Both the position numbers and the translations under genes were made by a program. Shown here piece after piece: positions 10,798 through 29,400 of a stretch of DNA of 36,421 bases. The stretch's first letter is position 1. Each line of letters starts with the position of its first letter. A model generated the notes under the pieces. The model saw only the letters and a list, made by a program, of their open reading frames with translations. It was not told where the DNA came from and made no database searches. The stretch spans positions 1 to 36,421 of IMG/VR virus record IMGVR_UViG_3300026118_000027. One strand, written 5' to 3'. Origin of the DNA: a virus.

Positions 10798-11034
10798 TCA
10801 CGACCACACCGGCGGCTGTCCCTCGCGCGGCACCCGGTGCACATGCACGGTGTGTCTCAGCGTAAGGCGCCACCACCGCGCGCACACGAGGCAGCGCCCG
10901 CCTGGCCGGCCGCGCAGGAGTCGGTGGTCATCGGGCGCGAGTTGGCGCTCGCTGCGCGCGTCGACAATGTCTTCGCGAATCCACAGCGGGCGCTGCCGCC
11001 CGCCGGGGCACCACGGGCGATCGCTCTCCTTCAT
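10798..11034 (-). CDS. Small basic Cys-containing protein
   Basis: The product is 78 residues starting MKESDRPWCPGGRQRPLWIR. It contains DDHRLLRGRPGGRCLVCARW and ends HTVHVHRVPREGQPPVWS. One C-x-x-C plus several His could bind zinc. The ATG at 11032-11034 overlaps the upstream stop by four bases (ATGA), which fixes the start. No family recognised. A GC-rich gap of 76 bases follows it. Confidence 0.55.
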   Translation of the reverse strand: MKESDRPWCPGGRQRPLWIREDIVDARSERQLAPDDHRLLRGRPGGRCLVCARWWRLTLRHTVHVHRVPREGQPPVWS

Positions 11035-11309
11035 TGCACGCGGTCCTCGTCGCTGAGATGCCCCGACGCCTGCATCGCCGCGATCATGCGCGCGCCGAGC
11101 TCGGCGTTCAGCTTCGACGTCGCGGTCGACGCCTCGCCCGCGGTGCGCCACGCCTCGAGCGCCTGACGCGAGACGTCGACGAGCAGGACGTAGCCGGTGA
11201 GGAGCGCCGCGAACATCCACGACAGGCCGGCCTGCGCCCACTGGCCGCGCACCAGGTCCAGCACGCCGACCCCGAGGTTGATGGCTACGCAGAGCCACAT
11301 GATGGCCAT
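11031..11309 (-). CDS. Small membrane protein with two TM helices
   Basis: The product is 92 residues. Helix 1 is MWLCVAINLGVGVLDLV and helix 2 is LSWMFAALLTGYVLLVDV, joined by a short RGQWAQAG turn. A charged, helical cytoplasmic tail follows (TATSKLNAELGARMIAAMQA). The layout fits small holin-like or superinfection-exclusion proteins, but no lysis gene is adjacent. The ATG at 11307-11309 shares one base with the upstream TGA (TGATG). Confidence 0.6.
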   Translation of the reverse strand: MAIMWLCVAINLGVGVLDLVRGQWAQAGLSWMFAALLTGYVLLVDVSRQALEAWRTAGEASTATSKLNAELGARMIAAMQASGHLSDEDRVQ

Positions 11310-11890
11310 CACACGAGCTCGTCGAGCACCTTGCGCGCGATCTTCTCGCCGCGGCGGTCGGCGATCGACGTCAGGGAGCCGTCCGCAATCAGCCGCTTGA
11401 TGGTCGGCTGCGACAGCGTGGTGAACGCGGCGGCCTCCGCCACCGTCAGGAACGGCTTGTCGGAACCGTCGGCACGTTTCCAGGAAGGGTTCCCGGAATT
11501 CCACGTCCCTTCCAGGAACCTGTTCGGGTCGACCCGCGCCAGCGCGACGGCCTCGCCCGGCAGCACTTGCTGCGGCGGCTTGGGCTTCTTCCGTTCGGCT
11601 TCTTCGCGCGCCACGCGGCGCACGTCGTCGGGGTGATAGACCGTCCGTTCGCGCGCCCCGTGTTCGGGCTTTCTCCATCGCGCCTTCGTCAGTCGCCCCG
11701 CGGCGGCGTAGTTGCGCACACTCCGAGGGTCGACCCCAATCGCCGCGGCGGCCTGGTCTTCATCCAGCCAGGTCGAGACGTCGACCGCGAGCACCTCGGC
11801 ATTCCCGGAAGCGTTCCCGGAAGCGTTCCGAGCACGTACGTTCCCCGTGGAATCCGGCCTGGTGTAGGGCACGATGTGCGGCGGGCTCAC
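11309..11890 (-). CDS. DNA-binding protein with two excisionase/MerR-type HTH motifs
   Basis: The product is 193 residues. HTH 1 is at 41-71 (WLDEDQAAAAIGVDPRSVRN, then YAAAGRLTKARW). HTH 2 is at 147-176 (FLTVAEAAAFTTLSQPTIKR, then LIADGSLTS). Both follow the HTH_17/excisionase layout. A basic linker (EERKKPKP-like) separates them. The likely role is transcriptional control or DNA architecture. GTG at 11888-11890 has GGAG 9 bases upstream and overlaps the previous stop (GTGA). The gene itself contains five TTCCNGGAA palindromes, possible sites for its own product. Confidence 0.7.
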   Translation of the reverse strand: MSPPHIVPYTRPDSTGNVRARNASGNASGNAEVLAVDVSTWLDEDQAAAAIGVDPRSVRNYAAAGRLTKARWRKPEHGARERTVYHPDDVRRVAREEAERKKPKPPQQVLPGEAVALARVDPNRFLEGTWNSGNPSWKRADGSDKPFLTVAEAAAFTTLSQPTIKRLIADGSLTSIADRRGEKIARKVLDELV

Positions 11891-12036
11891 AGGTCCAGCC
11901 TCCGACTCTGCACCACCCGCAACACGACGAGGATGATGCAGACGACCAGGAGCACATGCACGGCGTTCCCGCCGATGCCGCCGACCAGGCCGAGCAGCCA
12001 CAAGACCACGAGCACCAGGATCAGCGTTTCCAGCAC
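11887..12036 (-). CDS. lmo0937-like small membrane protein
   Basis: This is a 49-residue protein: MLETLILVLVVLWLLGLVGG, then IGGNAVHVLLVVCIILVVLR and VVQSRRLDL. This is the pattern of lmo0937-family (DUF5670) membrane proteins: hydrophobic helix, LWLLGLVxG, a short loop with H-x-LLV, a second helix, then R-x-x-Q-x-RR. These are common in bacteria and their function is unknown; finding one in a phage is noteworthy. GTG at 12034-12036 has GGGAGG 6 bases upstream. The stop overlaps the HTH gene. Confidence 0.75.
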   Translation of the reverse strand: MLETLILVLVVLWLLGLVGGIGGNAVHVLLVVCIILVVLRVVQSRRLDL

Positions 12037-12057
12037 CACACACCTCCCGTCTACTTC

Positions 12058-12073
12058 GGTCTATTAATAGACC
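12058..12073. promoter_or_regulatory. Perfect 16-bp palindrome (operator or hairpin)
   Basis: GGTCTATTAATAGACC is a perfect inverted repeat with an AT-rich centre in a GC-rich genome. It is placed 22 bases before the start of the lmo0937-like gene and two genes before the double-HTH gene. It could be an operator for that regulator or an early promoter element. No standard -35 is visible. Confidence 0.5.
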
Positions 12074-12076
12074 CGC

Positions 12077-12286
12077 TCAAAAGAGGGTCGACTGCGGATT
12101 GTCGCGGCGCGCGAGCTCGCGGCGCAGCAGCGCCAGGCGGCGTAACACGTCCTCCTCGCGCCCGTCGCGGCAGGCCTCCGCCAGCTCCGCACGGTAGGCC
12201 GCCGCCGCGCGCTTCAGCGCCCACGTCGGCCAGCCGCGATACGTGTCCTCGAGCCACGCGTCGGTCGGCCACGTCGGGTGTGTCAC
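12077..12286 (-). CDS. Small helical protein
   Basis: The product is 69 residues: MTHPTWPTDAWLEDTYRGWP, then ALKRAAAAYRAELAEACRDG and EEDVLRRLALLRRELARRDN. It is strongly helical and amphipathic. GTG at 12284-12286 overlaps the upstream stop (GTGA). I recognise no family. Confidence 0.55.
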   Translation of the reverse strand: MTHPTWPTDAWLEDTYRGWPTWALKRAAAAYRAELAEACRDGREEDVLRRLALLRRELARRDNPQSTLF

Positions 12287-12408
12287 TCAGGGGGGCGCTC
12301 GAACATCTCGCCGGTCGCGCGGTGATACTGCTCGAGCCACCGGGCCGACACTGACCCGCGCTCGATCCATCGCACACGCCGGCGCCAGCGTCGGAGCCAG
12401 GTCCACAT
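12283..12408 (-). CDS. 41-residue Arg/Trp-rich peptide
   Basis: The product is MWTWLRRWRRRVRWIERGSV, then SARWLEQYHRATGEMFERPP and E. The ATG at 12406-12408 comes one base after the previous stop, and the stop overlaps the next start by GTGA, so it fits the gapless chain. It is highly cationic with six Trp-type aromatics, like a membrane-active or nucleic-acid-binding peptide. Function unknown. Confidence 0.55.
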   Translation of the reverse strand: MWTWLRRWRRRVRWIERGSVSARWLEQYHRATGEMFERPPE

Positions 12409-12409
12409 G

Positions 12410-12493
12410 TCAACGGTGTCGGCACGCGCGCCAGATCAGCATCACCCCCCAGGCGAGCGCGGCATCGATCAGGAGCCAGTCGTTCGGGAGCAT
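12410..12493 (-). CDS. 27-residue membrane peptide
   Basis: The product is MLPNDWLLIDAALAWGVMLI plus WRACRHR: a single hydrophobic helix with a basic C-terminus. The ATG at 12491-12493 lies inside the 3' end of the upstream zinc-binding gene, and the stop is one base from the next ATG. There is no clear RBS, so translation would depend on coupling. Supported by architecture only. Confidence 0.4.
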   Translation of the reverse strand: MLPNDWLLIDAALAWGVMLIWRACRHR

Positions 12494-12777
12494 CGGAGGT
12501 CGGCGACGCCGGCGTCGTGTCCCCGTTGCCAGGTAACCCGGGCGCGCCCCGGCGCGTAGGGATTGAGCCCGTCGCCGGTCGTGCGGGGATGCTGGCTCCC
12601 CGCCAGGAACCCTTGGAGGAACGGCCGCGACCAGACGGCGTCGCTGGGCCGCCGCTCCGCCTGCCAGGCGGCATCCACGAGGCGACACCGCCCGCACACC
12701 ACCCCGCGGCCGCGGCGGTGACACCAGCGGCAGCGAGGCGGTCGCACGTTGATCCGCGCGACCACCACGGGGGCCAT
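12469..12777 (-). CDS. Zinc-knuckle protein with an RMF/CrpP-like motif, paralogue A
   Basis: The product is 102 residues. The N-terminal part has CRWCHRRGRGVVCGRC, a four-Cys zinc knuckle. Next comes FLQGFLAGSQHPRTTGDGLN, then PYAPGRARVTWQRGHDAG. The G-x-x-AG ... NPY-x-x ... W-x-x-G-x-x-AG order is that of ribosome modulation factor and CrpP-like proteins. The gene at 14231-14701 has the same two-part layout. A link to ribosome binding is inference from the motif. The ATG is at 12775-12777, 25 bases after the previous stop, with a weak RBS. Confidence 0.55.
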   Translation of the reverse strand: MAPVVVARINVRPPRCRWCHRRGRGVVCGRCRLVDAAWQAERRPSDAVWSRPFLQGFLAGSQHPRTTGDGLNPYAPGRARVTWQRGHDAGVADLRCSRTTGS

Positions 12778-12802
12778 AGGAAACTCGCCCAGGTGGCTCT
12801 CA

Positions 12803-13087
12803 TCATGCGCCTGCTGGCCCCTGCGGGTCCTCAAGAAACCGGTGACACGCCCCGCAGTACCGCTCCGCGACGTCCTTCGGGTGGGCACTTTCGCGTCCGC
12901 ACCGCTGGTGCCAGATCGTCTCGACACCGTTCCGAATGCTCACGACGAAGAGGTCGCCGCCTGTGCCGCGCAAGAGCCCCCCGGCGCCCTCGAGGCGCAT
13001 GGGACCGGTCAGGGTGAAGTGGAAGTTACCCAGGTTCGCGATCGCATCGTGGCGGGGCGCCTGCCGCGGATAAACCGGATCGCTCAC
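12803..13087 (-). CDS. Small protein with a HxxC/CxxC zinc motif
   Basis: The product is 94 residues. The first half is strand-like (ANLGNFHFTLTGPMRLEGAG, then DLFVVSIRNGVETIW). It ends with HQRCGRESAHPKDVAERYCG and ACHRFLED, giving H-x-x-C and C-x-x-C-H zinc ligands. GTG at 13085-13087 overlaps the previous stop (GTGA). No family recognised. It belongs to a run of small zinc-type proteins in this operon. Confidence 0.6.
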   Translation of the reverse strand: MSDPVYPRQAPRHDAIANLGNFHFTLTGPMRLEGAGGLLRGTGGDLFVVSIRNGVETIWHQRCGRESAHPKDVAERYCGACHRFLEDPQGPAGA

Positions 13088-13299
13088 GGTTTCTTCTCCT
13101 CGACGATCTCGAGGTGGTCAGGGTGCGCCGACATCTGCTTGTCTGTGTTCAGCAGCGCCATGCCGTCCGCGGTGTCGGTGACCAGATACGTGCGCGCCGG
13201 GAACGCCGGATGGTCGAACGAGGTCTTAAACCGCACGCGCTTGCCGACGAGTGCCTCGGCGCGCACGCGTTGCGCCGCGCGCTCATTCGCGTCAGCCAT
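13084..13299 (-). CDS. Small beta-type protein, unknown function
   Basis: The product is 71 residues: MADANERAAQRVRAEALVGK, then RVRFKTSFDHPAFPARTYLV and TDTADGMALLNTDK. The second half looks like a small SH3-like barrel (VGKRVRFKT...YLVTDTADGMALL), a fold often seen in phage accessory proteins. The ATG at 13297-13299 lies 8 bases inside the upstream gene. The frame is open further upstream but is not coding-like there. Confidence 0.55.
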   Translation of the reverse strand: MADANERAAQRVRAEALVGKRVRFKTSFDHPAFPARTYLVTDTADGMALLNTDKQMSAHPDHLEIVEEKKP

Positions 13300-13516
13300 A
13301 GTTGCGCCACCCCTTGATGCGCGTCGGCGGTTTGACAGGGTCATCGACGACCGTGACCGGCAGGCCGAGCTCGCGCGCCATGTCGCGCGCCGCCTCCAGC
13401 ACCGTCTCGCGGTTCTGTGGCGTGTCGGTGTAGCCGCTGGCGTCAAGGAGCTCGGCGATGTCGAGGTGCATCCCGCCTTGCTCATCGTCGTAGACGCCAG
13501 GTGCGAGTCGCTTCAT
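13292..13516 (-). CDS. Hypothetical protein
   Basis: The product is 74 residues: MKRLAPGVYDDEQGGMHLDI, then AELLDASGYTDTPQNRETVL and EAARDMARELGLPVTVVDDP. The N-terminal part resembles a short strand-turn-helix module; the C-terminus is basic. The ATG at 13514-13516 overlaps the preceding stop (ATGA). I recognise no family. It is the middle of five tightly overlapping small genes. Confidence 0.55.
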   Translation of the reverse strand: MKRLAPGVYDDEQGGMHLDIAELLDASGYTDTPQNRETVLEAARDMARELGLPVTVVDDPVKPPTRIKGWRNYG

Positions 13517-13722
13517 GGAGCGACCTCCACTTCAGCGATGAGGGCGTTGCAGCGCGCGCAGGTAATCTCGAGCACCCCGTTCTCGCGTCGATAGGTCACC
13601 CAGGTCCCGTCGCGCGGGTGACACCGCGCGAGAAACGTCACCGCACACGCCTGGTCATGGCAGTTGGGATGGTCGCAGCGGGCCTCGTCGAGCTCGTGTT
13701 GCGTGAGCGGCAGCTCGCTCAT
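13513..13722 (-). CDS. Conserved zinc-binding small protein
   Basis: The product is 69 residues: MSELPLTQHELDEARCDHPN, then CHDQACAVTFLARCHPRDGT and NGVLEITCARCNALIAEVEV. The order C-x-x-x-x-C ... RCHP-x-x-GT-x-V-x-Y ... LEI-x-C-x-x-C matches a small zinc-binding family I have seen repeatedly in phages and mobile regions, always annotated hypothetical. Its ATG at 13720-13722 overlaps the previous stop (ATGA). Function unknown. Confidence 0.65.
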   Translation of the reverse strand: MSELPLTQHELDEARCDHPNCHDQACAVTFLARCHPRDGTWVTYRRENGVLEITCARCNALIAEVEVAP

Positions 13723-13937
13723 AGAAACTCCCGCGCCCAGCCAGGGTCACCGGCGGTGCGCTCGGCCAGGCGGTAGGCGTCGAGCGCATCGCGCAACACG
13801 ACGACGAGAATCTCCTGGCCCCGTGGGTCGCAGACGTGGGTCTGCTTGAGCACCCGCAGGTTGAGCGCCTGCGCTGCTCGCTGCACGATCGCCGCGGCGC
13901 GCGGTTGCAGCTGGAACCGGATCGTCTGCTCGCTCAT
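13719..13937 (-). CDS. Hypothetical protein
   Basis: The product is 72 residues: MSEQTIRFQLQPRAAAIVQR, then AAQALNLRVLKQTHVCDPRG and QEILVVVLRDALDAYRLAER. It has an alternating helix-strand-helix pattern. The ATG at 13935-13937 shares one base with the previous stop (TGATG), so I prefer it to an upstream GTG. No family recognised. Confidence 0.55.
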   Translation of the reverse strand: MSEQTIRFQLQPRAAAIVQRAAQALNLRVLKQTHVCDPRGQEILVVVLRDALDAYRLAERTAGDPGWAREFL

Positions 13938-14188
13938 CACTCCCTCTCGAGTGGTCCGTACTTGGCGACGAGCCAATTTAGATGCGCGCGGCGCACGTTC
14001 TCGTCCATGTGCTCGAGCGCTTTGGCGAAGTGGTAGAGCGCGCGGATGTCATCGTGCATTCCCTTGCGCCGCAGCCGCGGCGGTAGCGGCGCCGGCACAC
14101 CATCGACGAAGAACTTGTCGGCGATTTTCTGTTTGACCATCCGCTGCACGTCGGGGTCAGAGTCGGGTAGCACCGCGTCGTCGCTCAT
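13937..14188 (-). CDS. Hypothetical helical protein
   Basis: The product is 83 residues: MSDDAVLPDSDPDVQRMVKQ, then KIADKFFVDGVPAPLPPRLR and DIRALYHFAKALEHMDENVR. It has an acidic start, a basic middle and a helical end. GGAGG lies 6 bases before the ATG at 14186-14188, one of the clearest ribosome sites in this cluster. That makes it the likely head of the 12283-14188 overlapping gene chain. Function unknown. Confidence 0.6.
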   Translation of the reverse strand: MSDDAVLPDSDPDVQRMVKQKIADKFFVDGVPAPLPPRLRRKGMHDDIRALYHFAKALEHMDENVRRAHLNWLVAKYGPLERE

Positions 14189-14230
14189 CTCACACCTCCA
14201 CAGTCGCATAGGGGCTCATTCTGTTAACGA

Positions 14231-14701
14231 TCACGAATCGCCAACTATCGGCCGACGTTTCGCCGCGGCCGGTCGTGTCGGGCCGCGCCGCGTTTTCGCT
14301 ACCACCCGTCGTGGCTCGGTGCGCGGCGCGGCCGTCGATCTGCTCGACCTTTCGCCACTACGGGTTGTGGTTCGTGGCGGCTTGCGCGGCGCGCGCACTT
14401 TCGCTTCTACCAGTGGTGGCCATCCAGCCTGGAAGCCGTGGTCCCAGTACCGCGCGCTGACGCCGGGGCGGTACGGGTTGTGTTGCTCGCTCGCACGTTC
14501 ATCGTCGGCGCCCGTCATGAACCCGCGGAAGAACGCGCGATGCATGTTCGGCAACTTCTGAGCCTTGAGTTGCTGCCATCCGACCTCGACGTCAACACAC
14601 GCCGTGCAGAGCGTTTGCTCTGGGTCCGCCCAGCCGCAGCTGCCCGGGCAGGGTTCGTCGTACGTGCAACCACACCAGCGGCACCGCCCGCTCCTAATCA
14701 C
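14231..14701 (-). CDS. Zinc-knuckle protein with an RMF/CrpP-like motif, paralogue B
   Basis: The product is 156 residues. The N-terminal CRWCGCTYDEPCPGSCGWAD and CTACVDVE form a Cys-rich zinc module. RMF/CrpP-like FFRGFMTGADDERASEQHNP, then YRPGVSARYWDHGFQAG, follows. The last 55 residues are a Lys/Arg/Thr/Pro-rich tail, probably disordered and nucleic-acid binding. It is a longer paralogue of the 12469-12777 product. GTG at 14699-14701 overlaps the upstream stop (GTGA). The role is unknown; the motif suggests ribosome or nucleotide interaction. Confidence 0.6.
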   Translation of the reverse strand: MIRSGRCRWCGCTYDEPCPGSCGWADPEQTLCTACVDVEVGWQQLKAQKLPNMHRAFFRGFMTGADDERASEQHNPYRPGVSARYWDHGFQAGWPPLVEAKVRAPRKPPRTTTRSGERSSRSTAAPRTEPRRVVAKTRRGPTRPAAAKRRPIVGDS

Positions 14702-14931
14702 CGCTGGTCGCCTTTGATCAGTGCATCCACCGCTTTCGCGTGGTCACTCGTCCGCTCGAGGTTTGCGGCTTCGATGATGTCGTCGACGATCATCCGTACC
14801 TCGCTCGTCTCCGCGTCGGTCCATTGGGCGCCCGTGACGCCGCCACGTACGGCGCCGGCAAGAATGCCCGAGAGCATCCGCACCGCGCGATCGCGGGGCA
14901 TCTCAGTCGGGCCGCTATAGGGTTTCAGCAT
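14698..14931 (-). CDS. Hypothetical protein
   Basis: The product is 77 residues: MLKPYSGPTEMPRDRAVRML, then SGILAGAVRGGVTGAQWTDA and ETSEVRMIVDDIIEAANLER. It is mostly helical. The ATG at 14929-14931 has AAGGA 7 bases upstream, and that site lies inside the small membrane peptide gene. Stop and start overlap both neighbours. I recognise no family. Confidence 0.6.
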   Translation of the reverse strand: MLKPYSGPTEMPRDRAVRMLSGILAGAVRGGVTGAQWTDAETSEVRMIVDDIIEAANLERTSDHAKAVDALIKGDQR

Positions 14932-15041
14932 TTGTGAGTCCTTTCCCTTTTTGTCTCCCAACGACCAATCCACGCCCCGATCTGAAACAACAGGGCGAAG
15001 AGGCCCATGCCAACGACAACGCCCAGTAGGAACACGCTCAT
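14925..15041 (-). CDS. 38-residue single-TM membrane peptide
   Basis: The product is MSVFLLGVVVGMGLFALLFQ, then IGAWIGRWETKRERTHKC: one transmembrane helix with a basic cytoplasmic tail. The ATG at 15039-15041 overlaps the upstream stop (ATGA), and its 3' end overlaps the next gene by 7 bases. Small membrane peptides of this kind occur in many phages as holin-like or host-interaction factors; no specific function can be read. Confidence 0.65.
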   Translation of the reverse strand: MSVFLLGVVVGMGLFALLFQIGAWIGRWETKRERTHKC

Positions 15042-15325
15042 TGTTCAAACACCGTGGACCGACTCCCCTGCCGCAGTTCGCGGAAGTCGAGCAGCGCCCG
15101 CGCGGCCGCCTCTTCGGGCAGGCCGACCTTCGTCGTGAGGAATGCGAACAGGAGCCCGTCGGAGACGGCCGCTTCGATCGCGCCCTGCAGCATCCCGACG
15201 ACCTCACGCGCTTTCGGCAGGTCCATCTGGACTTTCTCGTTGTTCACCACGAGCTCGACGGCCCCTTGCAACGTGCGCGCACTGAGGATCGAACCGACCT
15301 CGATCGTGATGTTCTTGCCCGGCAT
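15038..15325 (-). CDS. Conserved phage hypothetical protein
   Basis: The product is 95 residues: MPGKNITIEVGSILSARTLQ, then GAVELVVNNEKVQMDLPKAR, EVVGMLQGAIEAAVSDGLLF and LPEEAAARALLDFRELRQGS. I remember similar small phage proteins (SARTLQG..V.L..N.....D..KAREIVGMLQGAIEAA) without a known function. GGAGG lies 4 bases before the ATG at 15323-15325, which shares one base with the upstream stop. Confidence 0.65.
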   Translation of the reverse strand: MPGKNITIEVGSILSARTLQGAVELVVNNEKVQMDLPKAREVVGMLQGAIEAAVSDGLLFAFLTTKVGLPEEAAARALLDFRELRQGSRSTVFEQ

Positions 15326-15534
15326 CACACCTCCATCTCCCGCCGGTACGGAACAATCGCCGCCGTGGTTTCCTGTTCAAGACCCTGCCTGATGAAGTCG
15401 AGATTTGCTTCGGCATCACGCCGGGTTCTGAACTGGACGATGGGCCCGTGGCCGATGTCCCTGCCGTGCCGCACAAACGCTTCATAGCCGCTCGGGTAGG
15501 TCACCCGGATGCACCAGCGCGTCGTAGTTGACAT
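15325..15534 (-). CDS. Hypothetical protein
   Basis: The product is 69 residues: MSTTTRWCIRVTYPSGYEAF, then VRHGRDIGHGPIVQFRTRRD and AEANLDFIRQGLEQETTAAI. The layout (I-R-V-x-Y-P-S-G ... F-x-T-R-x-x-A-E-x-x-x-x-F) resembles small proteins with one beta sheet and one helix. The ATG at 15532-15534 is 8 bases after the preceding stop. No family recognised. Confidence 0.55.
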   Translation of the reverse strand: MSTTTRWCIRVTYPSGYEAFVRHGRDIGHGPIVQFRTRRDAEANLDFIRQGLEQETTAAIVPYRREMEV

Positions 15535-15542
15535 AACCCGGC

Positions 15543-15884
15543 TTATGACACCTTGCGCAGAAACCTCAACGATCGCGCGGGGTTCATATTGCGATCGCAA
15601 GATCGTGTACTCGCCTTTTGATCGCGAAACGGGAGCGCCAACTGGCCGGCGCGCAGCGCCACCCGTGCCATTCGGATACGGATCGTACGCAGCGCCATGT
15701 GCCGGTCGCGCGCCCGTCGCCGCTCGCGGGCGACGGCGACCTTCAGCAGTTCCGGTTCGGTGAAGAGCAGCATCCCCGAGTCGGTGACGTCGTACTGGTG
15801 CAGTTCGCCGCGCGCGGTGAGCCACCGCACATGTTCCGGCGTCACCTTGAGCACCTTCGCCGCACCGTAGGTCGTGAACTTCAC
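15543..15884 (-). CDS. Excisionase/MerR-type HTH DNA-binding protein
   Basis: The product is 113 residues. Residues 1-50 (MKFTTYGAAKVLKVTPEHVR, then WLTARGELHQYDVTDSGMLL) form a typical HTH_17 motif with a wing. FTEPELLKVA and a very basic tail (RERRRARDRHMALRTIRIRM) follow. This is the layout of excisionase-like or phage regulatory proteins. No integrase is visible, so excision is not implied; transcription control is more likely. GTG at 15882-15884 has GGAG about 9 bases upstream. Confidence 0.65.
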   Translation of the reverse strand: MKFTTYGAAKVLKVTPEHVRWLTARGELHQYDVTDSGMLLFTEPELLKVAVARERRRARDRHMALRTIRIRMARVALRAGQLALPFRDQKASTRSCDRNMNPARSLRFLRKVS

Positions 15885-15897
15885 GTCTCAGCCTCTC

Positions 15898-16485
15898 CTA
15901 CGCGACCGCCTTTTTCCGCGACGCCTTCGGCGCAACAGCGTCGGGTTGCACGCTGCCGGCAACCTCAAATCGCTCTACCGCAAACCGCCCATACCTGGGA
16001 CGCCACGAGCCCATGCCCGCTAGCAGTCCCCCGAACTGCAGCACTTGCTTCAGCGTGTCGGGGTCGATCGATGTGTTGTGTACGAGCAGGCGGAACGACA
16101 ACGTCCAGCCGGGATCGAGCTTGGGCCGAAAGAGCTCGACCATCGCGCCGGTGCGTGGCGGGATGCGGCCCATGCAGGTGTGGAGCCCGTCGTAGTCGAC
16201 GCGCCCGAACGACGGATCGCCCTCGACGGCGACCAGCGCGCGGAGGTACTGGCCGATCGATTTACGTCCGAGTTTCACCTCGCCGAGCCGCGCACCGTCC
16301 TCCATGCACCGTTGGAGATTCCACCCAGGCCACACGAGCACCTGCGTTTCAGGGTCGCGATACACGCGACGGGTCGCCTCTTCGAGTAACTCCTCGTGCC
16401 GGAGTTTTCCTGAGCGCGCCTTCGTCGTGTACGCATTGAACAGAATAGGAACGAGTCCTTTCAGAAGTCCGTCGACTTGATACAA
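15898..16485 (-). CDS. Conserved phage protein with a GLGxxRPxxGRF motif
   Basis: The product is 195 residues. It begins MYQVDGLLKGLVPILFNAYT and contains VWPGWNLQRCMEDGARLGEV, LGRKSIGQYLRALVAVEGDP and, near the end, GGLLAGMGSWRPRYGRFAVE. I recognise a widespread phage family with P-x-x-N-L-x-x-x-L-x-x-G-A and G-x-G-x-x-RP-x-x-GRF. Its function is not known to me. The late glycine-rich loop recalls RAMP/ferredoxin-like RNA-binding folds, which is only an idea. The start is TTG at 16483-16485, because a perfect AAGGAGG (16494-16500) lies 8 bases before it. The GTG at 16494 would have no spacing. The gene directly follows array D. Confidence 0.65.
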   Translation of the reverse strand: MYQVDGLLKGLVPILFNAYTTKARSGKLRHEELLEEATRRVYRDPETQVLVWPGWNLQRCMEDGARLGEVKLGRKSIGQYLRALVAVEGDPSFGRVDYDGLHTCMGRIPPRTGAMVELFRPKLDPGWTLSFRLLVHNTSIDPDTLKQVLQFGGLLAGMGSWRPRYGRFAVERFEVAGSVQPDAVAPKASRKKAVA

Positions 16486-16515
16486 AGCAACCACCTCCTT
16501 TGAAAAAACAACATT

Positions 16516-16595
16516 GCATCGCTAGGCTGCGCTGCGCATTGCCTTGCATCACGTTGCAAGGCAAGGCCTCGCTACGCCGTGCTGCGCTTCGCTTG
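16516..16595 (-). repeat. Phased GCNNN pentamer array D
   Basis: GC occurs every 5 bases from 16516 onward, in 15 of 16 consecutive units (the unit at 16551 reads AC). The three bases between are variable, so this is a periodicity, not a sequence repeat. It contains an 8-bp hairpin, GCCTTGCA with TGCAAGGC. On the minus strand it is followed by AATGTTGTTTTTT, then AAAGGAGG and the TTG start of the 15898-16485 gene. Confidence 0.9.
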
Positions 16596-16621
16596 ACTCA
16601 CCTTTTTTCAAGAACAACATC

Positions 16622-16686
16622 GCATCGCTGTGCTGTGCTCGGCGTCGCCAGGCTGCGCTAGGCAATGCAACGCGAAGCAGAGCAGA
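16622..16686 (-). repeat. Phased GCNNN pentamer array C (no gene attached)
   Basis: Thirteen consecutive GC dinucleotides at exact 5-base steps. On the minus strand it is followed by GATGTTGTTCTTGAAAAAAG and GTGA, the same spacer as the other copies, but with no gene: array D starts directly after. It looks like an empty copy of the array-spacer-RBS cassette. Confidence 0.9.
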
Positions 16687-16711
16687 GTTCACCGACTTCA
16701 AAAACAACATC

Positions 16712-16788
16712 GCATCGCGTGGCTGCGCTCCGCAGTGCCATGCCCAGCTAGGCGGCGCTTGGCGGTGCCATGCGTGGCTGCGCAAGGC
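16712..16788 (-). repeat. Phased GCNNN pentamer array B (no gene attached)
   Basis: Sixteen consecutive GC dinucleotides at exact 5-base steps. The array starts right at the stop codon of the 16789-17103 gene. The minus-strand follow-on is GATGTTGTTTTTGAAGTCGG and TGA, a degenerate version of the T-rich spacer plus RBS, and then array C begins. Confidence 0.9.
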
Positions 16789-17103
16789 TTAGGACTCTTT
16801 CTCTTTCATGCTCGACACCAGCCGCACGATCGGCTCGTTCGGCATCGCCGCCTCCAGGAACCGTTTCAATTCCTCTTTGTCGGCCGCGAGCTCCCGCGCC
16901 ATCGCGAAGTTAAACTCCACTTTCGCGCCGAGGCGCGTCTTGTCTTTCATCTCGGACGCGAACGCGCTCGCGGCGATGCGTCCCACGGTGATGTCCTCCG
17001 CTGACGGCGCTGGGTTCGTGAAGAGCGCGTACAGGGTTCTCCGAGCCTCCGCGACGATCGCGTCGCCGTTGATGTCGATCGGTGTCGTCTTTCGGTTGTT
17101 CAA
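16789..17103 (-). CDS. Array-associated helical protein
   Basis: The product is 104 residues: MNNRKTTPIDINGDAIVAEA, then RRTLYALFTNPAPSAEDITV, NFAMARELAADKEELKRFLE and PNEPIVRLVSSMKEKES. It is largely helical and charged, and I do not recognise it. The start is TTG at 17101-17103 because AGGAGG (17111-17116) lies 7 bases before it. An ATG nine codons upstream would place that RBS inside the gene. It lies between array A (upstream) and array B (downstream), so it is one gene in a cassette series next to the replication genes. Confidence 0.65.
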   Translation of the reverse strand: MNNRKTTPIDINGDAIVAEARRTLYALFTNPAPSAEDITVGRIAASAFASEMKDKTRLGAKVEFNFAMARELAADKEELKRFLEAAMPNEPIVRLVSSMKEKES

Positions 17104-17131
17104 GCTGTCACCTCCTAATTGAAAATTCATT

Positions 17132-17188
17132 GCATCGCCTCGCAGGGCTTGGCTGAGCCTGGCCCAGCGTCGCTCCGCTACGCCTAGC
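17132..17188 (-). repeat. Phased GCNNN pentamer array A
   Basis: Twelve consecutive GC dinucleotides at exact 5-base steps, starting 7 bases after the stop of the replication initiator. On the minus strand it is followed by AATGAATTTTCAATTAGGAG and GTGACAGC, then the TTG of the 16789-17103 gene. It shares the edge GCGATGCAATG with array D. Confidence 0.9.
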
Positions 17189-17195
17189 TCTGGTT

Positions 17196-18011
17196 TCACA
17201 TTCGGCCTCCCTGCCGCGCCTGGCGGGCTCTGTCGCGTGGGCGTGGCGCCGCCCCGCTCACGACCGCCGGGTTTCTGAACTTGAAGAGTTCCGACGTGCA
17301 CATCGCGTGAACGACCTCGCCGTAACCCTGGACGCGCTTCCGCGCACACAGCCGCTTGGTCGCTTCGACCAGGCTGTCGATCGACGTGGCGATCTCGCCG
17401 TTGAGCAGCTCGCGGCCGATGGACGGGTTGAACAGAATGCTCCGCGCCAGGCCGGCGACGCGCGATCGCAGTTTCTGCAGTCGGTGTGCGTGCGCGGCCT
17501 TCAGGGCGACGTGCTCGGGGTGCGGCGGTTTGACATGGAGCGGGAAGAGCGGAAGCCGCGGCGCAGCCGTGGCCTCGGTGGCGTTTTGTACTTGTCTTAC
17601 TGTTTTATTGTTTAGGGGGGACGGGGTGATCGCGGGCGACCACCCCCCTGATCGCGGGCGATCACCCCCCTGATCGCGGGCGATCACCCCCCCCTGATCG
17701 CCGGCGATCACCCCCCTCGCACTTTTTTCGTGGATCGCTTTCTCGATCGAGAGCGCGAATCGGTTGCGCCCACTGAACTCCCGATCGGTCCCGAGGCGCG
17801 TCATCGCGTGCATCGCTTCGAGCTGGGCGAAGACCTTCCGCACGCGCTGAGGCGACAAGCCGACCACCCGGGCAATGTCGCGCGCCGACGGCGCGGCGAA
17901 GCCGCGCTTTTGGTGGTCCCGCCAGCAGAGGATGGTCATCACCGAGAACTGCGCCGGCGACTCCCATAAGTCTTTGGTTCCAAGGAGTAGTTCCATCTGA
18001 TCCCAGCTCAC
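17196..18011 (-). CDS. Replication initiation protein (winged helix, lambda-O-like layout)
   Basis: The product is 271 residues. The N-terminal domain (about 1-92) contains an HTH, PSARDIARVVGLSPQRVRKV, then FAQLEAMHAM, and a wing with RNRFALSIEKAI. This is the pattern of phage replication initiators that bind iterons. Residues about 99-128 are Gly/Arg/Asp-rich and are encoded by the four iterons at 17627-17716. The C-terminal 130 residues are helical (LRSRVAGLARSILFNPSIGR) and could bind helicase or loader. GTG at 18009-18011 has GAGGAG 8 bases upstream. No helicase gene is visible in the window. Confidence 0.7.
   Translation of the reverse strand: MSWDQMELLLGTKDLWESPAQFSVMTILCWRDHQKRGFAAPSARDIARVVGLSPQRVRKVFAQLEAMHAMTRLGTDREFSGRNRFALSIEKAIHEKSARGVIAGDQGGVIARDQGGDRPRSGGWSPAITPSPLNNKTVRQVQNATEATAAPRLPLFPLHVKPPHPEHVALKAAHAHRLQKLRSRVAGLARSILFNPSIGRELLNGEIATSIDSLVEATKRLCARKRVQGYGEVVHAMCTSELFKFRNPAVVSGAAPRPRDRARQARQGGRM
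17584..17615. other. AT-rich tract beside the iterons (possible unwinding element)
   Basis: The stretch around TTTTGTACTTGTCTTACTG and TTTTATTGTTTAG is by far the most AT-rich part of the neighbourhood. It lies 11 bases from the first iteron. In lambda the AT-rich unwinding region flanks the iterons inside gene O in the same way. The function is inferred. Confidence 0.55.
17627..17716. repeat. Four 22-bp iterons, probable replication origin
   Basis: Direct repeats lie at 17627-17648, 17649-17670, 17671-17694 (two extra C) and 17695-17716. Each reads TGATCGCGGGCGATCA plus a run of six or more C. The first 16 bases form a dyad with 7-bp arms in the middle two units; unit four (TGATCGCCGGCGATCA) is a perfect palindrome, and unit one has a single change in the right arm. 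They lie inside the initiator gene, between its two domains. Confidence 0.75.
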
Positions 18012-18037: not shown

Positions 18038-18754
18038 TCACGCCGCACGCTCCCGGCGTCGTCTCGCGTCGACCGTCATTTGACACATCGCGAACACGCG
18101 CGTCGCGAGGTCGAGCGGCGCGGTTTGAAAGAACGCCACCGGTCCCAACGACCGGAGCGGGGCCACCTGGGCGTCGACATCGGCGAGGAACTGCTCCGCC
18201 TCGCGGGCGTAGCCCGGGATGTCGAGCTCGTCGCGCCAGAGGCGGACGATCACCAGCTGCAACCGCGTGGGCAGGCGATCGTCGAAGCTCACAAAGTCAG
18301 CCCACTTGGCGCCGGTGAGCCAGACGTGATGCCGAATTTGTGAGCGATAGCGCGCCGGCACCCGGCGCGTGAGCAGGTATTGGAGATGCGTCGTCGAATT
18401 GGGATTTTTGATTTCGATGACGCCTTCGAACGCCCCGACATACCCGTCGAGGGAACAGCCGGCCCGCAGCGTGTCGTGCCTGAGGAACCCCGACGTCTCG
18501 ACCCGCTGCCCCGTGTGCGCGGCATAGGCGGCGCGGGCCGCAGGTTCCTGGTGTTCGCCCCGCCGCATGGCAGTCGTCGGCCACGGACAGGAATCCTCGG
18601 GGACCCCCGTCAATGCCTCGCGCACCAACTGCTGCCGGTACCGCTCGGTCCCTCGGCCGTGCGTCACGACGTCGTGCGCGCGGGAGGCGGTCAGATGTCC
18701 ACAGCGCGCGGCGCGCCACGCCGGGGACCGCTGCACGCATGTGAGGGCGATCAC
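18038..18754 (-). CDS. YqaJ-like viral recombinase / lambda-exonuclease family nuclease
   Basis: The product is 238 residues. The fold motifs run in order: QRSPAWRAARCGHLTASRAH (about 8-27), MRRGEHQEPAAR (63-74, with E70), SLDGYVG (101-107, D103), GVIEIKNP (111-118, E114 and K116) and YRSQIRHHVWLTG (136-148, Q139). These are the PD-(D/E)xK catalytic residues of YqaJ/lambda Exo. The enzyme resects double-stranded DNA ends 5'-3' for single-strand annealing. No RecT/Beta annealase is recognised nearby. GTG at 18752-18754 overlaps the previous stop (GTGA); the stop lies 26 bases before the replication gene. Confidence 0.85.
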   Translation of the reverse strand: MIALTCVQRSPAWRAARCGHLTASRAHDVVTHGRGTERYRQQLVREALTGVPEDSCPWPTTAMRRGEHQEPAARAAYAAHTGQRVETSGFLRHDTLRAGCSLDGYVGAFEGVIEIKNPNSTTHLQYLLTRRVPARYRSQIRHHVWLTGAKWADFVSFDDRLPTRLQLVIVRLWRDELDIPGYAREAEQFLADVDAQVAPLRSLGPVAFFQTAPLDLATRVFAMCQMTVDARRRRERAA

Positions 18755-24362: not shown

Positions 24363-26473
24363 TACGTCAACTGCACCTTGAGGCTGAGGAGCACCTTCGT
24401 CACGCCCGTCACGCTGTCGACGTTGAACCCGAACACGTCGCCGGCGGTGACGGTCGTCCCCCACCCGGTGAGCGTGCTATCCACCGACTTGGTCGCACTC
24501 GTGAGCGTCGGCTTGGCGCTCGCAGTGATCGTGTCGAACACCGTTGGCGGGTAGTTCGCGTAGGTGTCCTTCCAGACGTCGATCACGATCGAGCCCGACG
24601 TCGGCGTCGCGTCACACGACAGCAGGGTCGCTTCGACAATGGTGCCGCTCACCGGGCAGGACACGTAGCCTTTGATGCCGGTCGTGATGGCGACGCCGGC
24701 GCCGTCGACGAGCAGGCTCACGACCGCGTAGCGCGTCGGCACATTCGCGGCCGGCAGGACGCCCGTGACCGCGGCCGCCTGCGCGAGGTTGACGGCGCCA
24801 AAGCCGATCGCGGTGCCCGAGCGCCGCAGCACCTGGTGGTCGCTCGCCGCCGCGATGTCGGCGGGGTCGCCGCTGCTGTTCGCGCTGCGCCCGACGACCG
24901 AGAGCGCGGCCGAATCGCGCAGCATCGTATCGAGCACTTTGTTCGCGCCGATGGTCGCGGCTTGCGACCCGGCGCCGGGGCCGGCGGTGACGTCGCCGGT
25001 CAGTTGCGTCGTGGCGTCCAGGGCCGCGGCCACCGTCGCCGCATCCGACAGCACGACGGCGATCGTCTTGCCGCCGTCCTTGAGTAACTTGCCTGTCGTG
25101 CCGTCGAACGCCGCGATGCGAGAGTCGACGGCACTCGCGGGCCCGACCATGTCGCCGGCGCCGGCAGGCGTGCCGAACGCGCCATCCCCGCGCAGGTACG
25201 TGGTCGTGCCGCCCGGGAGCTTTTTCAGCAGCCCGTGATGCCCGGTCGTCGCATCGAGGTCGGTGTTGTCATCGGGCGTCGAGAGGTCATCGAGCTTGAT
25301 CGGGTCGGCGCCGCCGAGCTGATGCCGCGGCGCATGAATCAGCGGCGCGTAGCGTGCGTCGGCCTGCGCTTGCGTGATGCCGGGCGCCGCCTGCGTCGTG
25401 CCGCTGGCGACCCAGCTGATGTCGTCGAGATAGAACCCGATGGTCGACGAGCCCGCGCGCGTGAGGCGGACCTGGGTGATGAGCGATCCGGCTGGGACGG
25501 CAAACTGCGTGATCGGAATCGCGAGCTGCTGATAGGTCGTCGTGTTCGCGGAGTCGAACCCGAACTGCCCGTGCGCGATCGTCAGCGTCTGCCCGACGAC
25601 AACCCCGGCGTTCTGTAGGCGGATCTGCATCGACCGATTACTCGACCAGGTCGCTTTGCTGCGGATGTAGATCACCAGCTGCGCGTAGAGGTTCGGGTCG
25701 AACGTCCCGCTGCCGATCGCGCCCTGGAGATAGGCGCCGCTGGCGACGGTGGTCGCCTCGATGTCCTTGGTGCCGGTGCGCGGGTTGTTCGTCGAGGCGA
25801 GCGTCCAGCCGGCGCCGCTCGAGGTCCAGTTCCACTCGGCCGCGGCGCCGGCGTTCTCCGCGTAGACGACGACGCTCGAGGCGGTCGCCGGCGCGGAGCT
25901 CGCCGCCACGACCAGCACGATCGCGAGCTTGAGCTGCGTGGCGGGGTCGATGTCGGGCTCGGCCGGCTGCGCCGCCGCCGTGCCAGGCACCACGACGACG
26001 TCGCCCGCGTCGTCGACGGCGATCACGTCAAGGCGGTCGAGGGTCGCGTGCGCCGCGGCGAGCGTCGCCGTGTCCTCGGCGCTCGCGTAGAGCGTGCCGG
26101 TGATGTAGTAGCTGGCCGCCGACACCAGAAACGTGTAGGCGCTCTGCCAGACCACCTGGCCGCCGCTGACCAGGAAGCTGCCCTGCGCGGCGCCGTCGCC
26201 GCCGCTCGGCCCAGCGGGTCCGGTGGCCCCGGTCGCCCCCGTGGCGCCCGTCGCGCCGGTGGCCCCCGTGGCGCCGGTCGCGCCGGTGGCTCCCGCGGCC
26301 CCATCCGCGCCGTCGGCCCCATCGGCCCCGTCCGCGCCGGTGCCGTCCACGACCTTCGGGTTGCCGGCCGGGTCAGTGATCACCGCCCCGCGCCGGCGGC
26401 CGCCGTAGACCTGGAGGTCACGCTGCGGGCGGCGGCGGTCGCTGCGCGTGGGACGGGTCGGCGTCGACGCCAT
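24362..26473 (-). CDS. Collagen-like tail fibre protein
   Basis: The product is 703 residues. A basic N-terminus (PTRPTRSDRRRPQRDLQVYG) is followed at about 44-94 by Gly-X-Y triplets (GADGADGADGA, then many GAT), a trimeric collagen-like stalk. Further on, IHAPRHQLGGADPIKLDDLS (about 375-400) matches the HA-x-RH-x-x-GGADPI element found in phage fibres. The end is beta-rich. The protein probably links the virion to the beta-helix fibre encoded next. The ATG at 26471-26473 shares one base with the stop of the giant gene (TGATG). Confidence 0.8.
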   Translation of the reverse strand: MASTPTRPTRSDRRRPQRDLQVYGGRRRGAVITDPAGNPKVVDGTGADGADGADGADGAAGATGATGATGATGATGATGATGATGPAGPSGGDGAAQGSFLVSGGQVVWQSAYTFLVSAASYYITGTLYASAEDTATLAAAHATLDRLDVIAVDDAGDVVVVPGTAAAQPAEPDIDPATQLKLAIVLVVAASSAPATASSVVVYAENAGAAAEWNWTSSGAGWTLASTNNPRTGTKDIEATTVASGAYLQGAIGSGTFDPNLYAQLVIYIRSKATWSSNRSMQIRLQNAGVVVGQTLTIAHGQFGFDSANTTTYQQLAIPITQFAVPAGSLITQVRLTRAGSSTIGFYLDDISWVASGTTQAAPGITQAQADARYAPLIHAPRHQLGGADPIKLDDLSTPDDNTDLDATTGHHGLLKKLPGGTTTYLRGDGAFGTPAGAGDMVGPASAVDSRIAAFDGTTGKLLKDGGKTIAVVLSDAATVAAALDATTQLTGDVTAGPGAGSQAATIGANKVLDTMLRDSAALSVVGRSANSSGDPADIAAASDHQVLRRSGTAIGFGAVNLAQAAAVTGVLPAANVPTRYAVVSLLVDGAGVAITTGIKGYVSCPVSGTIVEATLLSCDATPTSGSIVIDVWKDTYANYPPTVFDTITASAKPTLTSATKSVDSTLTGWGTTVTAGDVFGFNVDSVTGVTKVLLSLKVQLT

Positions 26474-29400
26474 CAGCGCGCGTCCTGTGCACGACCGGAG
26501 ACGAGCCCGCGCGTCGCCTCGAGCGCATCGTCGGGCTCTTCGTTGCCGTCGTAGACGTCGGCGAGGTAGCCGGCGGGACGCTTGAACGCGCCGACCGGCA
26601 ACCCGGTGAGCAGCCCGAGCAAGTCGATCAGATCGCGCACCGCTTTCCGTTTCGGCCCCGCCTCGAACACGGCGCGGTACACCTCGAGCGGCGCGCGCAC
26701 CGCGTTCTCCACCATCCCGACCGCGGGCGACGACGAGATGCGATCGTCGGCCGTCGTCTGCGTCGCGTAGAGGTTGTAGGCCGCCGTCGCGATCTGACCA
26801 GCGAACGGCACCATCGCGGCCCCGGTGCGGATCTGCGAGCCGAAAAACAACCACATCAGCTCATCGAGGTGCGTGTCGTCGTCGTCATCGTCCCAGCCGC
26901 CGATCGCCTGCGTGATCGCTTCCGAGAGCACCGCCGGCAGCATGAACCCGAAGAGATAGATGTAGAGCGCGCGGCCGGCGCCCTTCTTCAGGCCCAGGTC
27001 GCGCACGACCAGGCCGAGCTCGGTGCCGTTCACGTTCGCGAGCATGTTGAAGTAGCCCGAGAACATCACGAACGCGCGCACGAACGGGATCTGCGCCTCG
27101 AACTTCGCGATGTCGGCCGGCTCGAACGACCCCTGCGTCTCGCGCACCGCGGCGTCGCCGGCGCGGATCGCCTCGGCGTGGGTCGCGTCGTGGCGCTCGG
27201 TCGCCTGCTCGTAGCCGCCCGCCCAGACGATCTGGTCGACCAGGTTCTGCGCGGACGACTGCAGGAGGTAGCCGTGCTGCTGCCCCCACTGCTGCACGGT
27301 TTCGTAGCGGGACGGGTTGAGGAGAATGTCCTCGAGCTGCTGCTGGAGCTCGAACGCCGCCGGCGTCAGGCGCGTCGTCATGAACTTCGACTCGGCGAGC
27401 GCCGCCTTGAAGTCGTCGGCCTGGGTGATGCGGCGCCAGAGCGCGTTCCGCAGGTAGCGCGGCTTGACCTTGAGCGCCGCAATGAAGCCCCCCGTGAACT
27501 GCTGCAGGGTGTTCATGACGTGCCCGGCCATCATGTTGAGGCCGACGCGCGCCCGCAGCCCGCGGAAGATCCAATCGGCCGCCTGCCCGTCCTGGCCCTG
27601 GCTGGCTTTCGCGACCCGCTGGTTCGCCGTGCGCTGCAGCCACGGGATCAGCAGACTCTGCAACACCGTCGGGTCGTAGGCGTTGAGGCGGTCGCGCAGC
27701 CCGTGCCCCCACAGCAGGCGCCCGACATCGCGGATGCGCGGCTCGATATGAATGAACCGCAGGACCTTGTCGAGGTGTGACGGGATGAGTTGCAGGTTGA
27801 GCGCGAGCGGCTTCGCATACTGTTCTTGCCGCGCCTTGGTGAACCCCTTGCCGGCGGTCGGGAACATCGAGGCGTTATCGTTGCCCTCGAGCGCCGCCTT
27901 CTCGCCGTAGATCGACTGCTGGGCGACCCAGAGCGGATCGACCAGCGCCGGCACGTAGCCGCCGGCGTAGGGGCCGAACGGCGTCTCGACCGGCCAGGCG
28001 GTGATCTCCGAAAAGTAGGTGCCGTACATCTCGCGGTGCGCGCGCTGCGCCTCGCTCTTCACGCTGCCGACCAGGTCCCAGACGGCCTGCACGAAGTCCA
28101 TGTCCCGCTTCGTGACGAGGCCCGTGTCGTACGCGCGCGTGAGAAACGCCTTCCACCGCGCATCGTCGAGCGTGCCGTCGGCGCGGACCACGCCCCACCG
28201 ATAGCCGCGCAGCAGCTTCTGATAGTTGCTCTCGTTGCCGGTGTGCAGCAGCGCGTGCAGCAAGGCCGCGCGCCCGTTGCCGTCGTCGACGCCGAAGACG
28301 AACCCGCCGAGCTCGGGCGCCGTAATCGTGCCGGGCGTCAGCGTGTCCTTGATCCCGTCGACCAGGGCGAGGTACTGCGCCAGATAATCCCGTTTGTGAA
28401 TCCGGTACGTCTCGGTCCCCTCGATCACGGGGTTCCACAGGATGCGGCGGAACGGTCCCGGCGCGCCGCCGTCGACGTAGCTGACCCAATGCTCGACGCG
28501 CCGCGCCGCCGCGCGTAGCCCCAGCAGCCGCAGCTCCCCCTTCGTGTGGCGCTGCTCCGCGAGCGGCGCATTGATGTCGTCGAGCCGGGTGGTGAGCTGC
28601 GTGGTGGCGATGTCACGGTCGACCAGCTGTCCGTCGATGCGGATCTGCTGCGACCGCAGCGACTGCTCCCAGAGCTGCGCCACCGTCTCGCGCAGCATCG
28701 TGAACTGCGCGACGGTCAGCGCCCCCAGGTCGGTGCCCGCCGCGACGACGCCGTCGATCTGTTCCTCGAGCATCGGGGCGAGCTCGGTGTCGTACTCCTT
28801 GACCAGCGTGAACGCCTCGCGCGCGTCGCCGAGGCGCTTCTCGGGCCAGAAGTAGGTCGCCGCCAGCACGCGCGCCGCCTGGACGTAGCCCATATCGCGG
28901 CGCTTGGCGAGCGCGGCGTCGTTGCCGAACATCTTCGCGAAGGTCGCGCGCGTCTCGTCAAGCTCGGCGACCCGGGCGGTCGCCTCGCGGAAGAGCGCCA
29001 GGTGAAAGAGCTCGGCCTGCTTCGCCGTGATCGCGGTGTCGAAGTCTTGCGTGCCGGCGGCGCGCGTGGCCTCCATCGAGCTGCGGCGCGCCGTGTTGTA
29101 GAACCGCTGCACCTGGGTCCGCAGCGTGCGCAGCGGCATCGTCGCCACTTGCGCCTGCGCCAGGCGCGCGAGCGTCGCCGGGTCGGGCATCTCGGTGCGC
29201 AGTCGCGCGGTGCCGGCGCGGGCCTTGTCCTTGGTCGCGGTCTTCTCCGCCCGCACCGACGGCTGGGCCGCCGTGCGGAGCTTATTGAGCAGCGCGAGCT
29301 CGGTGCGGATCAGGTCGTCGCGATGTTCGTCGGCGACGATCGTGCGCGCCTCCTCCTCGAGCCGGGCCGGGTCGTGGAAGATGTCGCCGTGCGCCTGCTC

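Follow-up and report, generated by a model that had tools for sequence, protein, structure and literature searches.

The 36.4-kb IMG/VR record analysed here over its whole length, which we call the window, belongs to a phage of ~67% GC and contains four stretches in which the dinucleotide GC returns at steps of exactly five bases; the question it raises is what such arrays are for. We conclude, with a probability of about 95%, that the four arrays (A to D, Table 1) are guide-RNA genes (vrRNAs) of a phage VIPR system. VIPR was reported in April 2026 as a phage weapon and a possible forerunner of class 1 CRISPR (PMC13142463, preprint). It consists of a RAMP protein, Vipr, together with vrRNAs of 9-16 GGY/NN pentamers and a 3' tail, comes in seven published types (I-VII), is used between phages, and reads DNA via the NN pairs with one base skipped (PMC13142463). 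The original prediction, made from the letters of the window, could name no element that matched; the VIPR vrRNA is such an element, and PMC13142463 was the earliest description of phage GGCNN or pentamer repeats that our literature search turned up.

The four arrays proposed in that prediction are real. Unbroken runs of GC at lag 5 reach 16 units in C, 13 in B, 12 in D and 8+7 in A (interrupted by one broken unit), against a longest run of 5 elsewhere in the window. Dinucleotide-preserving shuffles of the window (n=300) typically gave maxima of 4-5 and never exceeded 8, and no other dinucleotide in the window ran beyond 5 at this lag. The three intervening bases vary freely, as had been claimed, with 1.86, 1.89 and 1.90 bits in the three columns (51 units). 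The single non-GC unit, in array A, is GT and still G-pyrimidine; across the arrays the G is invariant, the next position is a pyrimidine in 53/53 units (52 C, 1 T), and both the NN pair and the first base of the scaffold are free.

The arrays are also strictly intergenic, again as first described. The relevant genes around them all lie on the minus strand, as do the arrays themselves, which adjoin the vipr gene. One gap is taken up by A, B and C: it extends from a 104-aa gene, directly at whose stop codon array C begins, to the ribosome-binding site of the 195-aa vipr gene, and D occupies the gap upstream of the 104-aa gene. In minus-strand sequence, each of A, B and C finishes in GCGATGC(A/G)ATGTTGTT, and a short leader follows. 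Their tails are short and have RATGTTGTT in common, the tail of D being different; folding of the window tails revealed no clear shared fold. By analogy with the published vrRNA tail, the tails of A-C would have the same function.

Table 1. Arrays, tails and neighbouring genes of the putative VIPR locus in the window
Feature	Position	Strand	Remarks
113-aa MerR-like gene	15543..15884	(-)	directly downstream of vipr; phrog_2474, E 2e-4; alternative candidate vap
vipr gene	15898..16485	(-)	195-aa RAMP, TTG start preceded by AGGAGG; G-loop GGLLAGMGSWRPRYGRF
3' tail of array A and ribosome-binding site (AATGTTGTTTTTTCAAAGGAGGTGGTTGCT)	16486..16515	(-)	
vrRNA array A	16516..16595	(-)	16 units, one GT; gene for gp32-type ssDNA-binding protein is predicted target
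3' tail of array B	16596..16621	(-)	RNA sense GATGTTGTTCTTGAAAAAAGGTGAGT
vrRNA array B	16622..16686	(-)	13 GC steps
3' tail of array C	16687..16711	(-)	RNA sense GATGTTGTTTTTGAAGTCGGTGAAC
vrRNA array C	16712..16788	(-)	16 GC steps; predicted target YqaJ exonuclease gene
104-aa orphan protein between C and D	16789..17103	(-)	candidate accessory (vap) gene, by position only
Tail-like 3' stretch of array D	~17107-17131	(-)	precedes ribosome-binding site of next gene
vrRNA array D	17132..17188	(-)	12 GC steps; RNA-sense NGC/NN units
O-like replication initiator gene	17196-18011	(-)	adjoins arrays
Stretch of own YqaJ gene, homologous to site that array C is predicted to target	18305..18346	(-)	19/28 read bases match

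The protein encoded beside the arrays identifies the system. Window Vipr matched the Vipr of Escherichia phage SUSP1 (PDB 36pp) with an E-value of 2.6e-8 when searched alone and 3.9e-38 as a 45-member family profile, and it belongs to the family phrog_4652. Its AlphaFold model (pLDDT 85.6) retrieved Csm3/Cas7-like RAMPs in Foldseek (E 6e-8, TM ~0.5-0.6). The predicted fold thus matches the Csm3 subunits of the Cas7/Csm3 RAMP filaments of class 1 CRISPR; the window differs from these systems, however, in having no CRISPR array, the scaffold recurring every 5 nt in place of contiguous spacer pairing, and no other cas-like gene was found among the window proteins scanned. A search for relatives with window Vipr alone returned only an identical contig fragment, L122 (IMGVR_UViG_3300005719_000268). 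This fragment is identical to window 10901-16595 over 5,695 bases and ends exactly at the outer edge of array A, i.e. its assembly broke at the array.

The VIPR system of SUSP1 (type II; PMC13142463) resembles that of the window in that a ~20-kDa RAMP adjoins intergenic arrays, and its arrays have the same geometry: they lie on the coding strand, consist of 11-14 G-pyrimidine/NN pentamers and are followed by 3' tails. The two differ in that the SUSP1 scaffold is mostly GGT, with G as first base in 37/50 units, whereas the window has NGC, in which the first base is free; the two Vipr proteins have low identity, and no accessory gene like that of SUSP1 can be recognised in the window. The 12-16 units of the window arrays agree with the published 9-16 repeats, the tail sequence shared by A-C is compatible with the published 3' tail, and the units follow a related-consensus form of GGY/NN but not strict GGY. 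Given the Vipr homology, the RAMP model, the homologues at other array loci (below) and the geometry of SUSP1, we regard membership of the VIPR class as about as firm as sequence allows.

Two neighbouring genes are candidates for an accessory gene. The 104-aa orphan had no family match better than E 0.1, and neither it nor the 113-aa MerR-like protein had a relative in the other loci. The arrays had further been placed beside the replication origin, which remains plausible: within the adjacent O-like initiator gene, the iteron-like repeat GATCGCGGGCGATCACCCCCCT occurs in four copies at 22-24-nt spacing (window 17621-17717), and these repeats are likely to be the origin. The window also encodes a podovirus-type head-tail connector (PF12236) and a YqaJ exonuclease, and more than a quarter of the record (26473-36084, minus strand) is a single open reading frame of 3,203 aa.

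We scanned IMG/VR with the pattern (GCNNN)12 and recovered at least 120 stretches, confirming that relatives keep the period. Among the matches listed, most were not simple repeats but varied arrays that read GGCNN or CGCNN in mRNA sense and lie between genes running in the same direction (42 loci were of type GCCNN, 37 of type GCNNG, with other types in smaller groups). Most of the listed loci adjoin a homologue of one ~20-kDa protein: of ~120 loci retrieved solely through the array pattern, ~84 have a gene for a Vipr homologue, usually next to the array. Among the listed arrays, the median gap to the stop codon upstream was 18 nt, and that to the following start 57 nt.

These relatives overturn the earlier assertion that the arrays are strand-symmetric, GC having the same phase on both strands. 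In the mRNA-sense orientation the third fixed base, which precedes GC, was G or C in 111/116 of the co-directional cases listed (111 vs 5), and this tie to mRNA sense indicates that the arrays act as RNA. The self-complementarity of GC, and the position of the window arrays beside an O-like initiator gene with iterons, would suit a DNA element, with GC once per half helical turn forming a bend or a protein-binding array, e.g. for an origin or partition. This is very improbable, as the third fixed base reveals, in relatives, an orientation tied to transcription, most loci place the arrays beside the RAMP gene and not beside origins as such, and the variable bases decode to gene sequences (below). 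Of the original proposal of DNA shape or protein binding, a register of five nucleotides imposed by a protein is the best explanation, and half-turn phasing of the DNA is not needed.

The free dinucleotides in the listed arrays comprise all 16 types, and identical neighbouring units numbered 220 against 243 expected. This lack of any excess argues against an origin by slippage; as first stated, the arrays are not simple tandem repeats. A decayed microsatellite is the least likely explanation we considered: although some IMG/VR matches are true simple repeats (e.g. L025, L033 and L097), adjacent units of the arrays at issue resemble each other no more than they do after shuffling, the scaffold is kept while NN is free, a Vipr gene lies adjacent, and the diversity of units refutes slippage for those of the window. 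Steps that leave the register were strongly biased among the listed arrays (36 of 4 nt, one of 6 nt). Four loci (L054, L059, L071 and L096) have arrays split into sub-arrays by 4-nt steps of the form GGCA|GGC, which are possibly the joints of overlapping vrRNAs. Strand lock, free and unlike units, and step bias together point to an RNA read in a 5-nt register.

A 5-nt register with a short fixed motif and a free spacer also characterises the (G/U)AGNN leader repeats bound by TRAP. TRAP-like ring binding of the RNA was the first mechanism that we considered, from the strand bias, and it was dropped upon the Vipr homology; unlike TRAP repeats, the window arrays go with a RAMP gene and hold information on targets, and no TRAP protein is needed. 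Another way of acting as RNA would be as a structural leader whose alternative hairpins, suggested in the original prediction, control translation of the downstream genes. The arrays do sit in the leaders of two genes and one contains an 8-bp stem, yet this too is very improbable: folding energy was no lower than in NNN-column shuffles, which preserve the GC phase (z +0.37 to +1.17, rounded +0.4 to +1.2), and Rfam contained no family at gathering score, the weak matches lying below cut-off.

The variable bases were then read as guides. The arrays had been called "not a codon pattern", but the variable bases of array C, concatenated in RNA sense, read as codons of a target gene (L A H M T Q A L W M T G A H). 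For searching, the first two bases of each triplet were used as a gapped pattern (1-nt-skip rule). A 20-base pattern of C had one match in IMG/VR, in codon phase within the YqaJ gene of locus L123, where 26/28 read bases agree (12, 14 and 4 of 14 by codon position). A shorter pattern of C found two further YqaJ genes (23/28 and 22/28), making three in all; shuffling the unit order of guide C gave at most 19 at the YqaJ sites, compared with 26, 23 and 22. The other 8 of the 11 viral matches to the shorter pattern (seven in one small membrane-protein-like family, one unrelated) were judged to be chance because their flanking units do not match. Scanning genomes with the 20-base pattern of C yielded no match; an 18-base pattern yielded one, in Puniceibacterium and not in a YqaJ gene, which was judged to be chance.

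Array A gave no target with an earlier 20-base pattern. A later pattern had two matches, both in gp32-family ssDNA-binding genes and in codon phase (24/30 and 22/30); support is weaker than for C, the shuffled maximum at the better site (L135) being 21 against 24. The gapped-pattern search found no target for arrays B and D. Exact natural targets of A and C were not found, L123 differing at 2/28 read bases and L135 at 6/30. From these matches, array C appears to be directed against a rival phage's recombination exonuclease of YqaJ/lambda type, and the probable target of array A is a gp32-type single-strand DNA-binding protein gene. RecT and a weak match to NinB are present at L123 as well, which suggests that the rival is a phage possessing a recombination module of its own.

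Within its own genome, guide C scores best, out of ~72,800 positions, at the homologous codons of the phage's own YqaJ gene (Table 1). The score of 19 is itself unexceptional, being reached by 8.7% of shuffled guides, and it is the location alone that is telling. The mismatches would presumably keep the phage's own YqaJ gene safe from array C.

The decoded targets bear on how many bases of each unit are read. The third variable base matched the target at 4, 1 and 2 of 14 positions for C and 2 and 2 of 15 for A, i.e. at about chance or below in all five genes, and its GC content in the window arrays is 36% in a phage of ~67% GC, unlike real GC-rich wobble positions. Agreement at chance suggests that this base is a relaxed scaffold base and not a third read base; most simply, it is the first scaffold base, unconstrained and lying over the skipped target base. 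The skipped base fell on the codon wobble in the computed matches of C to YqaJ and of A to gp32, which is support and not proof. A comparison of skip lengths at L123, L127, L129, L135 and L136 is circular, these loci having been found via the 1-nt-skip pattern, and does not count as evidence. We disfavour, as improbable, a VIPR variant with a two-base scaffold in which all three variable bases are read against a contiguous target. In its favour are the free variation of all three bases and their concatenation into open codons, and the targets, found with the wobble ignored, are imperfect matches. Against it are the behaviour of the third base on targets and its low GC, and contiguous A or C guides gave only chance matches in a blastn search of 50,697 phage records.

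With the third base taken as scaffold, the window can be set against the other loci. At the 84 Vipr loci with arrays among the matches listed, window included, the first scaffold base was G in 68 and C in 8; two of the remainder were GCA-like, one reads reversed, four were partly relaxed and the window had no preference (1.90 bits, 51 units), a survey biased towards GC-containing scaffolds as the search pattern itself contained GC. Two VIPR-like loci, L011 and L057, appear to have GCA/NN in RNA sense and not GGC/NN. Window Vipr forms a long branch, its nearest relatives found being L063/L069 (E 1e-16, 32% identity), which share the array geometry of the window but use CGC/NN (first base C in 29/35 units) and not NGC. 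The cultured Gordonia phage Trine has a VIPR-like locus in which a Vipr homologue adjoins a 12-unit array; it differs from the window in its GGC/NN scaffold and in that the array lies beside a tRNA-T-arm-like stretch. In Trine (L139, 2930-2987) this stretch, GGTTCGACTCC, follows the array and is repeated in L061; Rfam gave no match to it at gathering score. As even SUSP1 has G as first base in only 37/50 units, the window is better seen as the extreme of a range than as a separate code. Tentatively, and at somewhat less than even odds, we suggest that it represents a VIPR subtype whose scaffold has shrunk to a bare G-pyrimidine dinucleotide, with the first base wholly free.

By analogy with the published systems, minus-strand transcription would give one RNA per array, with 12-16 pentamers in which N-G-C (rarely N-G-T) alternates with NN, and a short 3' tail. 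This RNA would be covered by Vipr, the RAMP encoded just downstream, with one copy for every 5 nt; the protein would keep the scaffold bases out of the way and present the NN pairs. The complex may then bind double-stranded DNA at sites that consecutive NN pairs match when one base, usually that at the codon wobble position, is passed over, and the bound gene would be repressed. Silencing of its exonuclease and SSB genes would hamper the recombination and replication of a rival, while mismatches would protect the phage's own exonuclease gene.

This kind of system has been known since April 2026; what is new is the member in the window, its loose scaffold, the decoded targets, and the recovery of VIPR loci in bulk from periodicity alone. 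The window provides an example of VIPR from an uncultivated phage, found from sequence periodicity without a structure search, with rival recombination and replication genes as plausible decoded targets. As the periodicity scan returned VIPR loci by the dozen, the arrays are a simple and sensitive search handle. The window also reveals how loose a guide scaffold can be: if the subtype proposed above is real, the Vipr RAMP would need only two fixed bases per 5-nt step, and the scaffold consensus (GGC, CGC, GCA or NGC) would be set by the Vipr lineage. The spread of these scaffolds over Vipr lineages makes the question of RAMP recognition directly testable.
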